This document shows, one piece after another, positions 10,086-14,357 of a stretch of 54,615 bases of DNA. The notes under the pieces were generated by a model, which worked only from the letters and a program-made list of their open reading frames with translations, was not told the DNA's origin and ran no database searches. Where the stretch lies: contig CALQSQ010000033.1 in NCBI GenBank assembly GCA_943333275.1, positions 1 through 54,615 of the forward strand. The letters are read 5' to 3'. Position 1 is the stretch's first letter. Every line of letters starts with the position of its first letter. The stretch comes from Akkermansia muciniphila (GTDB lineage Bacteria; Verrucomicrobiota; Verrucomicrobiia; Verrucomicrobiales; V1-33). A program made the position numbers and the translations under genes.

Positions 10086-10982
10086 CCGCTGTCCGGAGGT
10101 GTCTGGGTCGGTCACGGTGCGTTCGCTGCCGTTGTCGGTGAAGGTGGCGCCGCTCAGGGAGATCCAGCTGGTGGAGAGCAGGTTGGTGCTCGTTTTCACC
10201 GTGTAGGTGCGGTCCGGTAGCCGGGGGCTGAAAACGATGTGCGTCTGGCCGGGGTGCCCGGGCACGGGTTCCATCCGCCAGTGAAAGACAGACGCCGGGT
10301 CCGTGGGAATGAGTCCGGCGTCGAATTCAAATTTGTTGCTGAAGCCGTCCCGGTCCGCGTCCACTCCCGGCGCGGCGGCGGGGTTGTTCTGGCCGAAGTA
10401 TTGCACCTGCCAGGCGTCGTCGAGACCGTCGCTGGCGTAGGTGCCGAAGTTGTCAGGAATGCTGTTGAGCACGGTGAGTCCAAGGGTCCCGGTTGCTCCG
10501 GCATAGACGCCCTGGGCGGTGGCGGCGGTGTTTTGGTAAACTACTCCCGCCGTTGCGAGTCCGCTGGCATTGATGGCCAGCGGACCGAGGGGAACACTCC
10601 ACGTGATGCTGGCGGCGGACACGGCCAGCAGGCTGAGGTCATCCAGCGTCTGCCAGGCGGTGAGCTGATCGGTGCTCGTTTCGTTCACAGTGGGCGTGGC
10701 GGATGTGAGCGTCAGGCCGGTCACGTCGTAGAGCTGGCCCACGTAGCCGTGCTTGGCGGTCTCGGCGGGGGCAGCCACGGTGGAAATGCCCACAATGCCA
10801 CCAACGCTGCCGTCGTTGGTGTAGGAGGTGCTCGTGGCGCGTTTGCCGCCGCTGTCGGCGGTGTCAGTCACGACGTTGTAGTTCGTGCTGCTGCGCGGGC
10901 CGGCGTGGGTGGTAACCACGCCCAGCAACAGCAGAATGGGCAGGGCGATGGAACTGAATATTGCATTGGAGTGCTTTTTCAT
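10053..10982 (-). CDS. Secreted protein with EF-hand-like/thrombospondin-type-3-like loop; last gene of the DGR strand
   Basis: The protein has 309 residues. A clear signal peptide (MKKHSNAIFSSIALPILLLL with Ala-Gly cleavage near residue 28) is followed by Ser/Thr/Gly-rich beta structure. A calcium-loop-like DADRDGFSNKFEFD lies near residue 200, in the context DGLDDAWQVQYFGQNNP that is frequent before such loops in Verrucomicrobia surface proteins. The C-terminal ~85 residues form a beta domain ending GQRKFYKVEITNP. The start codon overlaps the stop of the reverse-transcriptase frame as ATGA, so it could be translated by coupling as the last gene of the DGR transcript. No lectin fold or variable repeat is present in it. 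The function is unknown; an exported or cell-surface location is inferred. Confidence 0.75.
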   Translation of the reverse strand: MKKHSNAIFSSIALPILLLLGVVTTHAGPRSSTNYNVVTDTADSGGKRATSTSYTNDGSVGGIVGISTVAAPAETAKHGYVGQLYDVTGLTLTSATPTVNETSTDQLTAWQTLDDLSLLAVSAASITWSVPLGPLAINASGLATAGVVYQNTAATAQGVYAGATGTLGLTVLNSIPDNFGTYASDGLDDAWQVQYFGQNNPAAAPGVDADRDGFSNKFEFDAGLIPTDPASVFHWRMEPVPGHPGQTHIVFSPRLPDRTYTVKTSTNLLSTSWISLSGATFTDNGSERTVTDPDTSGQRKFYKVEITNP

Positions 10983-12920: not shown

Positions 12921-14357
12921 CTACGCTCTGCTGTTCTGCTCATGGCTGACCTGGGGGCAAGACAGACCGGAAGCCAATGCTGCCGTCGGCACCGAACGGG
13001 TCGCCGTTGCCGCGTAGGCACAGCGCGCGCCGATCGCGTCGACGTCCCAACTGCCGCCGCGGATCACGCGGCCGGAGCCCGTTGCGGCACCATGCGGATC
13101 AGTACCTCCGGCATACGGCGTCCCATACCAATCCCAACACCACTCAAACACATTCCCAGCCATGTCGTTCAACCCATATCCATTCGCCGCAAACGTGCCC
13201 ACAGCACTCGTCGCAGGCGACGTTCCCCCGACACTCCCAACCGCGTTGTAGCCGTTCGGTCCCAAATCGTAGGCATCTCTGGCGGTATCGCCGTAGTAGT
13301 TCGCCAAATTCTGCGTGATCGTGTTGCCCCACGGAAACCGCTGCCCGGTCCGCCCCCCTCGCGCCGCCTTCTCCCACTCCGCTTCCGTCGGCAGCCGATA
13401 CCCGTTCGCCGTCCACTTCGCCTGCGTGTTGGTCACGTTCACGTTCCCCGTCTTGTAGATCGTCGTCTGCGCATCGTTCGTGTAATACACCGGCGTCTTC
13501 CCCGCCTGCTCGCTGCGCGCATTGCACCACTTCACCACGTCATACCAGCTCACCGTCTGCACCGGATGGTTCGGCCCTTTGCCCGCTCCAGCGGCGAAAG
13601 CATAGCCGTTGCTCGTGGCCCAATAATACACCGACTGCCATTGGCTCAGCGTCACCTCGTTCACGTCCATGTAAAACGCCGACACCGTCGCACTGATGGG
13701 CGCGGCGTTCGTGATGTCCGTGTCGGCAGCAACGCTGTTCCCCAGCGTGAAGACCCCCGCAGGGATGAGCACCATGCCGGGCGGGGGCGTGGCGGTGACG
13801 CCAGGGATGTTCCCGCTGGCATCGCGTTTGACGATGGTGTTCGGCGCGTTCGCCGTGGTCGCCGCATTGGCGAGGTTGGCCCCGCTGGCGACATCGGACG
13901 CGCTCACTCCACCCACCGTGCCCGCCACCATCGCATAGCCCACCGCCGCGAGGCGCTGGTCGGGCGTGAGGAGCTGGAAGCCGTTCGTGCCGTTGTTGAA
14001 CCACACCCGCAGGCGCACGTCAGAGTTGGCGAAGACGGTGTTCGGAATCGCCGTCATGTTCGCCAGCGTGGTGTCGCCGAGCAGCACCGAGTAGAGCCCC
14101 TTCGTGACGGTGAGAGTGACCGCTGCCGTGGGCTGCGAGCCGGCGGTGCTAGTGCCGTCATTGCTCCAGTAGGTGGTGGTGCCGGAGGCATCGACGAGGG
14201 CAAACTTGAACGAACCGGAGCCGTCGAAGTTCGTGGTGCCCACGGCGACGCGCCCCTGGTAGTTGATCATCTGCGGCACCTGCGCCTGAGCAGGGACGCC
14301 AAGGATCGCCAGGAGGGCGAGCAGAATGAGGGAGAGGGTGGTGGTGTTTGGTTTCAT
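12921..14357 (-). CDS. DGR target: secreted SUMF1/formylglycine-generating-enzyme-fold protein
   Basis: The protein has 478 residues from the ATG that begins a signal peptide (MKPNTTTLSLILLALLAILG, cleavage after AQA at about 25). Residues 28-145 are a beta-rich module (INYQGRVAV ... LLTPDQRLAAVGYAMVA) found at the front of many verrucomicrobial surface proteins. Residues 190-445 are an FGE-sulfatase domain: PPPGMVLIPAGVFTLGN, FYMDVNEVTLSQW, VSWYDVVKWCNARSE, YRLPTEAEWEKAARGG, GNVFEWCWDWYG and RVIRGGSW. In DGRs this C-type-lectin-like fold displays variable residues near its C-terminus and binds ligands. The variable repeat covers the last ~50 codons. One base is missing there relative to the template, so the last ~30 residues are out of the usual frame; with the base restored the protein would end in IGFRSVLPPGQP (472 residues). 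Confidence 0.93.
   Translation of the reverse strand: MKPNTTTLSLILLALLAILGVPAQAQVPQMINYQGRVAVGTTNFDGSGSFKFALVDASGTTTYWSNDGTSTAGSQPTAAVTLTVTKGLYSVLLGDTTLANMTAIPNTVFANSDVRLRVWFNNGTNGFQLLTPDQRLAAVGYAMVAGTVGGVSASDVASGANLANAATTANAPNTIVKRDASGNIPGVTATPPPGMVLIPAGVFTLGNSVAADTDITNAAPISATVSAFYMDVNEVTLSQWQSVYYWATSNGYAFAAGAGKGPNHPVQTVSWYDVVKWCNARSEQAGKTPVYYTNDAQTTIYKTGNVNVTNTQAKWTANGYRLPTEAEWEKAARGGRTGQRFPWGNTITQNLANYYGDTARDAYDLGPNGYNAVGSVGGTSPATSAVGTFAANGYGLNDMAGNVFEWCWDWYGTPYAGGTDPHGAATGSGRVIRGGSWDVDAIGARCAYAATATRSVPTAALASGLSCPQVSHEQNSRA
12951..13084 (-). repeat. DGR variable repeat (VR) in the target gene
   Basis: This 134-base segment is homologous to the template repeat. By codon alignment I count 22 substitutions, all at template adenines (18 A>G and 4 A>T), and one deleted base where the template AAA codon reads TA on the minus strand (13015-13016). 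Codons without adenine are unchanged, and both flanks are identical out to CAACGGGCTC on one side and TTGCCCCCAG on the other. Confidence 0.96.

Follow-up and report, generated by a model that had tools for sequence, protein, structure and literature searches.

Genes and features of the locus

The window, i.e., the whole stretch of 54,615 nucleotides analyzed here, carries on its minus strand a diversity-generating retroelement (DGR) of the HRDC type, which is a system of known kind, yet one with a compact layout and an out-of-frame copy of its target gene (Table 1). A first-pass annotation made from the sequence alone had assigned all parts of a DGR to one strand, and the target gene, the HRDC accessory gene, the reverse transcriptase (RT) and the template repeat (TR) were all four found on the minus strand where it had put them. 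The gene order on that strand is target, HRDC gene, RT ORF containing the TR, and an ORF of 309 amino acids.

Table 1. Position of the DGR cassette and its component features in the window.
Feature	Position	Strand	Remarks
DGR cassette	14357-10979	minus	Target, HRDC gene, RT and TR all present
Target gene	12924..14357	minus	ORF; Pfam FGE-sulfatase PF03781, E 9.9e-46
Variable repeat (VR)	12944..13084	minus	22 substitutions at A sites; one template A missing
IMH-like AGGTC	12948..12952	minus	VR 3' edge; IMH name by analogy with BPP-1
HRDC accessory gene	12286..12759	minus	Pfam PF00570, E 1.7e-17
Reverse transcriptase ORF	10979..12289	minus	436 aa; RVT_1 E 1.5e-14; IGNLTSQ and YMDD
Template repeat (TR)	11147..11288	minus	Asn-codon rich in target frame, Gln-rich in RT frame
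IMH*-like AGCTC	11151..11155	minus	TR 3' edge; IMH* name by analogy with BPP-1
Structured RNA past TR	11004..11146	minus	Putative counterpart of BPP-1 sp; motifs TGACCCGG, GTCCCGTCC, GGCGAA
Candidate priming adenine	11121	minus	In conserved TGACC motif; proposed by analogy with BPP-1
Covarying hairpin	11004..11074	minus	GAGTAG / CGAAAG internal loop

The target protein starts with a signal-peptide-like N-terminus, followed by an FGE-sulfatase (C-type-lectin-type) domain that carries the VR, and its nearest solved relatives in a PDB search are FGEs and TvpA, a DGR target from Treponema (2y3c, 4.2e-22), in agreement with the annotated secreted target whose FGE domain holds the variable repeat. 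The VR is located in the C-terminus of an FGE-type target, as is expected of a DGR, though in the present copy that C-terminus is not in frame. An AF2 model of the target (mean pLDDT 47.6) is usable for the N-terminal part only. The annotated HRDC gene was recognized as such by Pfam; it lies directly beside the RT, its stop and the RT start overlapping as ATGA (12289-12286). Both RT motifs that had been named in the annotation, IGNLTSQ and YMDD, are present in the translation, and the TR is rich in Asn codons, as had been described, when read in the target frame. With the TR as query against the 5.79 Mb draft genome (215 contigs), the sole matches were this TR itself and its own VR.

Three further observations concern the surroundings. 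The 309-aa ORF (10053-10982, minus strand) has a signal-peptide-like start and an ATGA overlap with the RT stop; it returned no Pfam match, and its NCBIfam matches were weak and under cut-off. Two small ORFs (9081-9311 and 9330-9701) are bracketed by a direct repeat of 141 nt (91%) with a further one of 44 nt (82%) after it, at 8780-8973 and 9899-10088, and this arrangement looks like a cassette inserted between duplicated ends. Elsewhere in the same draft genome there is a second, weak RT match (G000:C40:18518-18991, E 1.5e-9).

Affiliation and distribution of the reverse transcriptase

Sequence comparison places the RT in the DGR family. The nearest solved RT in a PDB search is BPP-1 bRT (8ub7, E 1.5e-47), followed by a group II intron RT (9.7e-14), while the scores with the NCBIfam group II, retron and DRT models are far under the respective cut-offs (e.g., 107 bits against 300 and 53 against 235 for the group II intron and retron RT models). 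The first-pass annotation had named a tree as a check of this assignment, and in a tree of 53 rows the RT indeed sides with BPP-1 Brt and the other DGR loci, apart from the group II intron RTs: nine other RTs stand on the far side (100/100), and the three of the nine that were checked all pass the NCBIfam group II intron cut-off. Within the tree, the RT, L047, L049 and L050 make up a supported group of four, in which L047 is nearest to the RT (71% identity) and is labelled Verrucomicrobiales. From the labels of the nearest loci, the host is probably a member of Verrucomicrobiota.

A search of 189 genomes, source genome included, identified 20 others that match the RT at E <=3e-45, while the other genome of the same genus gave a match of just 2.8e-11, which indicates that the DGR is patchily distributed.

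Differences between the template and variable repeats

The alignment of the TR (11288-11147) with the VR (13084-12944) comprises 142 columns and shows, within the repeat, exactly 22 substitutions, every one at a template A (18 A>G, 4 A>T and none to C). To this extent the first-pass count of 22 differences, all at template adenines, was accurate; it had, however, passed over an A of the TR AAA run that the VR lacks (between 13017 and 13016), making a length difference of 1 nt, and two more differences located at the 3' edge of the repeat, one C>G and one A>G. The C>G change, being the lone non-adenine substitution, sits at the IMH edge, outside the mutated stretch. It converts the TR AGCTC to the VR AGGTC, i.e., the pattern of an IMH*/IMH pair. 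Among relatives, 22 of the 29 loci with AGCTC in the TR show AGGTC or AGTTC in the VR, while AGCTC is missing from the TR in 36 of 65 loci. Across 79 TR-VR pairs of genome loci, which had been preselected for at least 75% of mismatches at A, 1383 of 1518 substitutions fall at a template A (L001-L003, L054 and L085 were left out of both the pair and the IMH counts).

An out-of-frame target end

The target ORF enters the VR in the frame of its family, but after the missing A it continues in another frame and ends SGLSCPQVSHEQNSRA; read in the family frame, the same DNA ends GFRSVLPPGQP-stop, like the homologs. The DGR had been called complete, and while all of its parts are indeed there, this term needs qualifying: with the VR copy present in this assembly, the target is no longer in frame at its end.

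A target homolog from a close relative, P0121, is 83% identical and has the same shifted-frame end, but departs from the family frame earlier. Among the matches listed (120 target homologs, ranked by score, which favours in-frame ends), P0121 alone was seen with this ending; P0167 is truncated, and in P0179 the tail is longer. The RT P0001 is 97% identical, with its TR stretch translated to the same residues as in the RT here, and is probably encoded on one contig with P0121, the longest contig of each having a length of 7298. The VR residues of P0121 differ from those of the present VR, and identical TR residues together with different VR residues suggest that the VR was rewritten after the split.

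A frame-changing difference in length between TR and VR was observed in six of 79 genome pairs (window included) and in two of 67 viral pairs (8/149 pairs before removal of near copies), while in-frame length differences were found in four and one of these pairs, respectively. An adenine-linked indel mechanism was considered but not established: five of the seven indels in the six frame-changed genome pairs adjoin a template A, yet so do 47-57% of TR positions in those same loci. Both viral cases fall in G runs.

We infer that the shifted VR is a product of diversification and that it could be overwritten by a later round, since the TR is unmutated. It is unlikely, in comparison, that the frame change marks a dead or dying element and not a passing product. 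The genome has no VR besides this out-of-frame one, its congeneric genome gives a weak RT match only (2.8e-11), and remnant DGRs occur in relatives (L208, L209 and L212, see below), all of which would suit such decay; however, the TR, HRDC gene and RT are open, the RT core retains a third-position bias of 54%, the VR is without non-adenine substitution inside the repeat, and, as the shift of P0121 is a different one, both shifts would have to be recent. Distinctly less probable again is an assembly or sequencing error, perhaps caused by mixed VR variants: though the draft genome is in 215 contigs and hypervariable sites assemble poorly, the site does not lie in a VR homopolymer (TA versus AAA), the relative likewise has a shifted end, and 6/79 genome pairs show frame-changing length differences.

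A structured RNA and covarying hairpin past the TR

The RNA immediately past the TR (Table 1) is predicted to fold well, its folding being beaten by only one of 200 shuffles (z -3.09). Common motifs follow the TR in related loci, regardless of whether the RT frame covers this stretch, i.e., TGACC or GAACC with GG, TCC-GTCC and GGC(A/G)AA, and then, inside a long stem, (A/G)GTAG and CGAA(A/C)G; in the internal loops formed by the latter two, GTA is invariant and GAA nearly so.

Pairing in this stem was assessed in two alignments. Three mis-anchored rows (L060, L026 and L109) and two near copies (L054 and L085) were dropped beforehand; of the remaining 48 rows, 23 were used for alignment A2 and 42 for alignment A3, the latter supplemented with eight places found by the hairpin model R1 (see below). 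In A2 (23 sequences), 90.6% of cells pair, with two-sided changes in 13 of 15 pairs and none of 500 shuffles as high. In A3 (50 sequences), 89.3% of cells are paired and covariation amounts to 0.824 versus 0.216 +/- 0.017, none of 500 shuffles being as high and slid controls reaching at most 0.229; these covariation counts are inflated, as the sequences were chosen partly by folding, for which reason the places outside the seeds matter more. The window copy (L017) is itself a member of the model seeds. No Rfam match to the hairpin was obtained for 10800-13200, where a single chance-level match (17.6 bits versus a gathering score of 75) lies on the opposite strand.

A stem of this kind, with a T-rich stretch after many of its copies, could act as a transcription terminator only, but this is very unlikely given the invariant GTA and nearly invariant GAA in its internal loops. 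Furthermore, L088, L144 and L163 have the TR upstream of the RT with the hairpin between the two, where termination would cut off the RT gene.

Distribution of the hairpin among DGRs

The model R1, whose seed consists mostly of HRDC loci, returned 32 matches at E <=1 in 89 sources, including, outside its own seed, L047, L079, L051, L018, L076, L055 and L088; one of the 32 is a second, distant match in L051 (6725-6797, E 0.006), far from the RT. In 80 viral loci there were 11 R1 matches, one of them (L153) on the opposite strand. By accessory type, R1 matches 42 of 68 HRDC-bearing loci, three of 97 Avd-only loci and four of 13 loci with neither. The notion that the hairpin is limited to HRDC-type DGRs was nevertheless dropped, as a covariance model, R2, matches Avd-only viral loci, e.g., L144, L163 and L165. 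The archaeal locus L087 (Methanolobus), in which the fold fits, is a seed row of R2 and gave no R1 match.

At E <=5, R2 returned 20 matches in 81 viral/BPP-1 sources and 20 in 63 others, i.e., 39 besides the window, 27 of which are on a locus with a detected TR. All 27 of these checkable matches are on the TR strand, 57-156 nt past the TR (median 92), though they include two seed rows (L129 and L131) and near copies of two seed rows (L054 and L085); some viral loci among the R2 matches are also close to each other (L163/L165, L146/L147 and L156/L158). Of the 12 matches without a detected TR, at least that of L115, some 2.4 kb from the RT match, is probably due to chance. There was no R2 match in 61 of the 81 viral/BPP-1 sources and 43 of the 63 others (104 in all), the latter including all nine group-II-like RT loci searched. 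BPP-1 itself matches neither model.

When the 189 genomes were searched with R2 under stricter filters, 14 matches were obtained in 13 genomes, nine of them beside a DGR-like RT (source genome included); among the other genomes with a DGR-like RT, 8 of 20 have a match beside it. A further genome match, L210, stands alone, and L211 probably represents chance.

Three matches lie in what seem to be damaged loci. In L208 and L209 the hairpin is beside an A-biased repeat pair (10/12 and 19/25 mismatches at A) with RT fragments only, and these are probable DGR remnants. L212:1-402 has the hairpin where the RT tail matches, with an IS-like coding sequence directly upstream, in the expected place of the TR, and is perhaps a DGR broken by an insertion.

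What may be new among these findings is the hairpin, which was seen in DGRs of the HRDC type as well as of the Avd type. In the searched passages of the DGR literature (PMC3521204, PMC4891356, PMC8144416, PMC6642488, PMC12875486, PMC8867640, PMC4159848, PMC8008677, PMC3240598, PMC10907252 and PMC4372165), no description was found of a hairpin past the TR common to DGRs, or of frame-changed VRs; an equivalent of the hairpin could be contained in the BPP-1 RNA structure paper (Handa 2025).

The TR lies inside the RT reading frame

The RT ORF spans the entire TR and 168 nt past it, with residues ~1-333 representing the RT and the remainder being read-through of the TR and the following RNA; neither this overlap nor the hairpin had been noted in the first-pass annotation. 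The in-frame RT stop was located in 60 loci (two of them near copies) whose TR lies downstream of the RT start: it falls before the TR in 34 (three of which, L056, L073 and L113, have an early RT frame break), inside it in 11 and after it in 15, and all three phases of the RT frame relative to the target frame over the TR occur.

Differences between six close loci, whose pairs are not independent, were counted by RT codon position. They are distributed over the three positions as 26/20/54% in the RT core and 32/24/44% in the thumb, as 48/26/26% in the TR, where RT position 1 is the third position of the target, and as 34/33/32% in the stretch that follows. These counts give no sign that the RT tail is under selection as a protein: changes in the TR follow the pattern of target code and those in the stretch after it the pattern of RNA, which argues that the tail is read-through. 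That its ~100 residues form a functional protein domain overlapping the TR by chance is therefore exceedingly improbable and was rejected on the codon-position counts, even though nearly all of the first 60 RT homologs listed extend into or through the TR (judged by eye), since many loci stop before the TR and an AF2 model (whole-model mean pLDDT 57) has a pLDDT <50 for residues 336-436.

Comparison with known systems

The cassette resembles the BPP-1 DGR (mtd, avd, TR, brt) in its RT family, its adenine-specific TR-VR differences, the position of the VR at the target C-terminus and the presence of a structured RNA past the TR. It differs in that an HRDC gene is present where BPP-1 has Avd, the TR follows and overlaps the RT, the target is of the FGE type, and the GTAG/CGAA hairpin was not detected in BPP-1 by R1 or R2. 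A small GRNA-loop hairpin adjoining the VR in BPP-1 style was not found, there being just a wide inverted repeat (12921-12860), and no common hairpin was seen by eye past the VRs.

The likeness to the DGRs of Treponema denticola consists of an HRDC accessory gene overlapping the RT start, which is described for these DGRs in a passage of PMC4891356, and an FGE-type target (TvpA, 2y3c). According to the same passage the accessory gene is situated between TR and RT in Treponema denticola, whereas in the present cassette the 3' end of the RT frame contains the TR. In this respect the cassette agrees with group 3 of DiGReF, for which the relevant text of PMC3521204 gives a TR overlapping the 3' end of the RT ORF; unlike that description, the RT frame here covers the entire TR and beyond, as read-through.

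Proposed mechanism

The cassette is very probably an HRDC-type DGR in which the RT and the TR RNA would rewrite the VR of an FGE-fold target, with the structured RNA as a putative docking and priming platform. Likely with the HRDC protein in the place of Avd, the RT would reverse-transcribe the TR RNA and make its errors at adenines; the resulting cDNA would then take the place of the VR in the terminal part of the target, a likely secreted protein whose binding would likely be altered. Since the TR starts directly after the stretch coding for the RT thumb, the template would be supplied by the RT message, as its 3' part, and the RT frame through the TR and sp would serve as read-through only. 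The AGGTC (IMH) would mark the VR as the target of the cDNA while the AGCTC (IMH*) would spare the TR, and this process would also have yielded the frame-shifted VR seen at present.

In BPP-1, cDNA is primed from the sp adenine at position 56. The structured RNA of the cassette, with its short conserved motifs, stem and GTAG / CGAA internal loop hairpin, occupies the same position past the TR as the BPP-1 sp RNA and may by analogy be a docking and priming platform like it, in which case adenine 11121 would be the candidate residue from which cDNA is primed. The sp RNA of BPP-1 is a folded RNA that recruits bRT-Avd and supplies an internal adenine for the priming of cDNA (passages of PMC12875486), and a predicted conserved structure of the trailing RNA is mentioned in the text consulted of PMC8867640.

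Implications

DGRs are a widespread programmed route by which microbes diversify a protein, and most of what is understood of their mechanism comes from work on one phage. Tentatively, and with more doubt than confidence, it may be proposed that a hairpin with a GTAG / CGAA internal loop, deeply conserved and undescribed, is a general component of DGR template RNAs, located ~60-160 nt past the TR. It would occur in bacterial, viral and perhaps archaeal DGRs of both the HRDC and the Avd type and act as a common docking module of the error-prone RT complex, and in the clade of this cassette a single RNA segment would combine the roles of RT message, mutagenesis template and docking RNA. If this is true, a transcript under translation cannot be templated, and RT supply would be coupled to diversification. 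That RT message, template and docking RNA overlap would also account for the long glutamine-rich tail annotated on such RTs, which is not selected as protein. The frame-changing VRs (6/79 genome pairs) suggest in turn that off-states of the target may be common. The wider value of the locus is the covarying hairpin common to many DGRs: being recognisable in both HRDC- and Avd-type systems, it offers a handle for finding templates without a detected VR, and a concrete element to mutate outside BPP-1.
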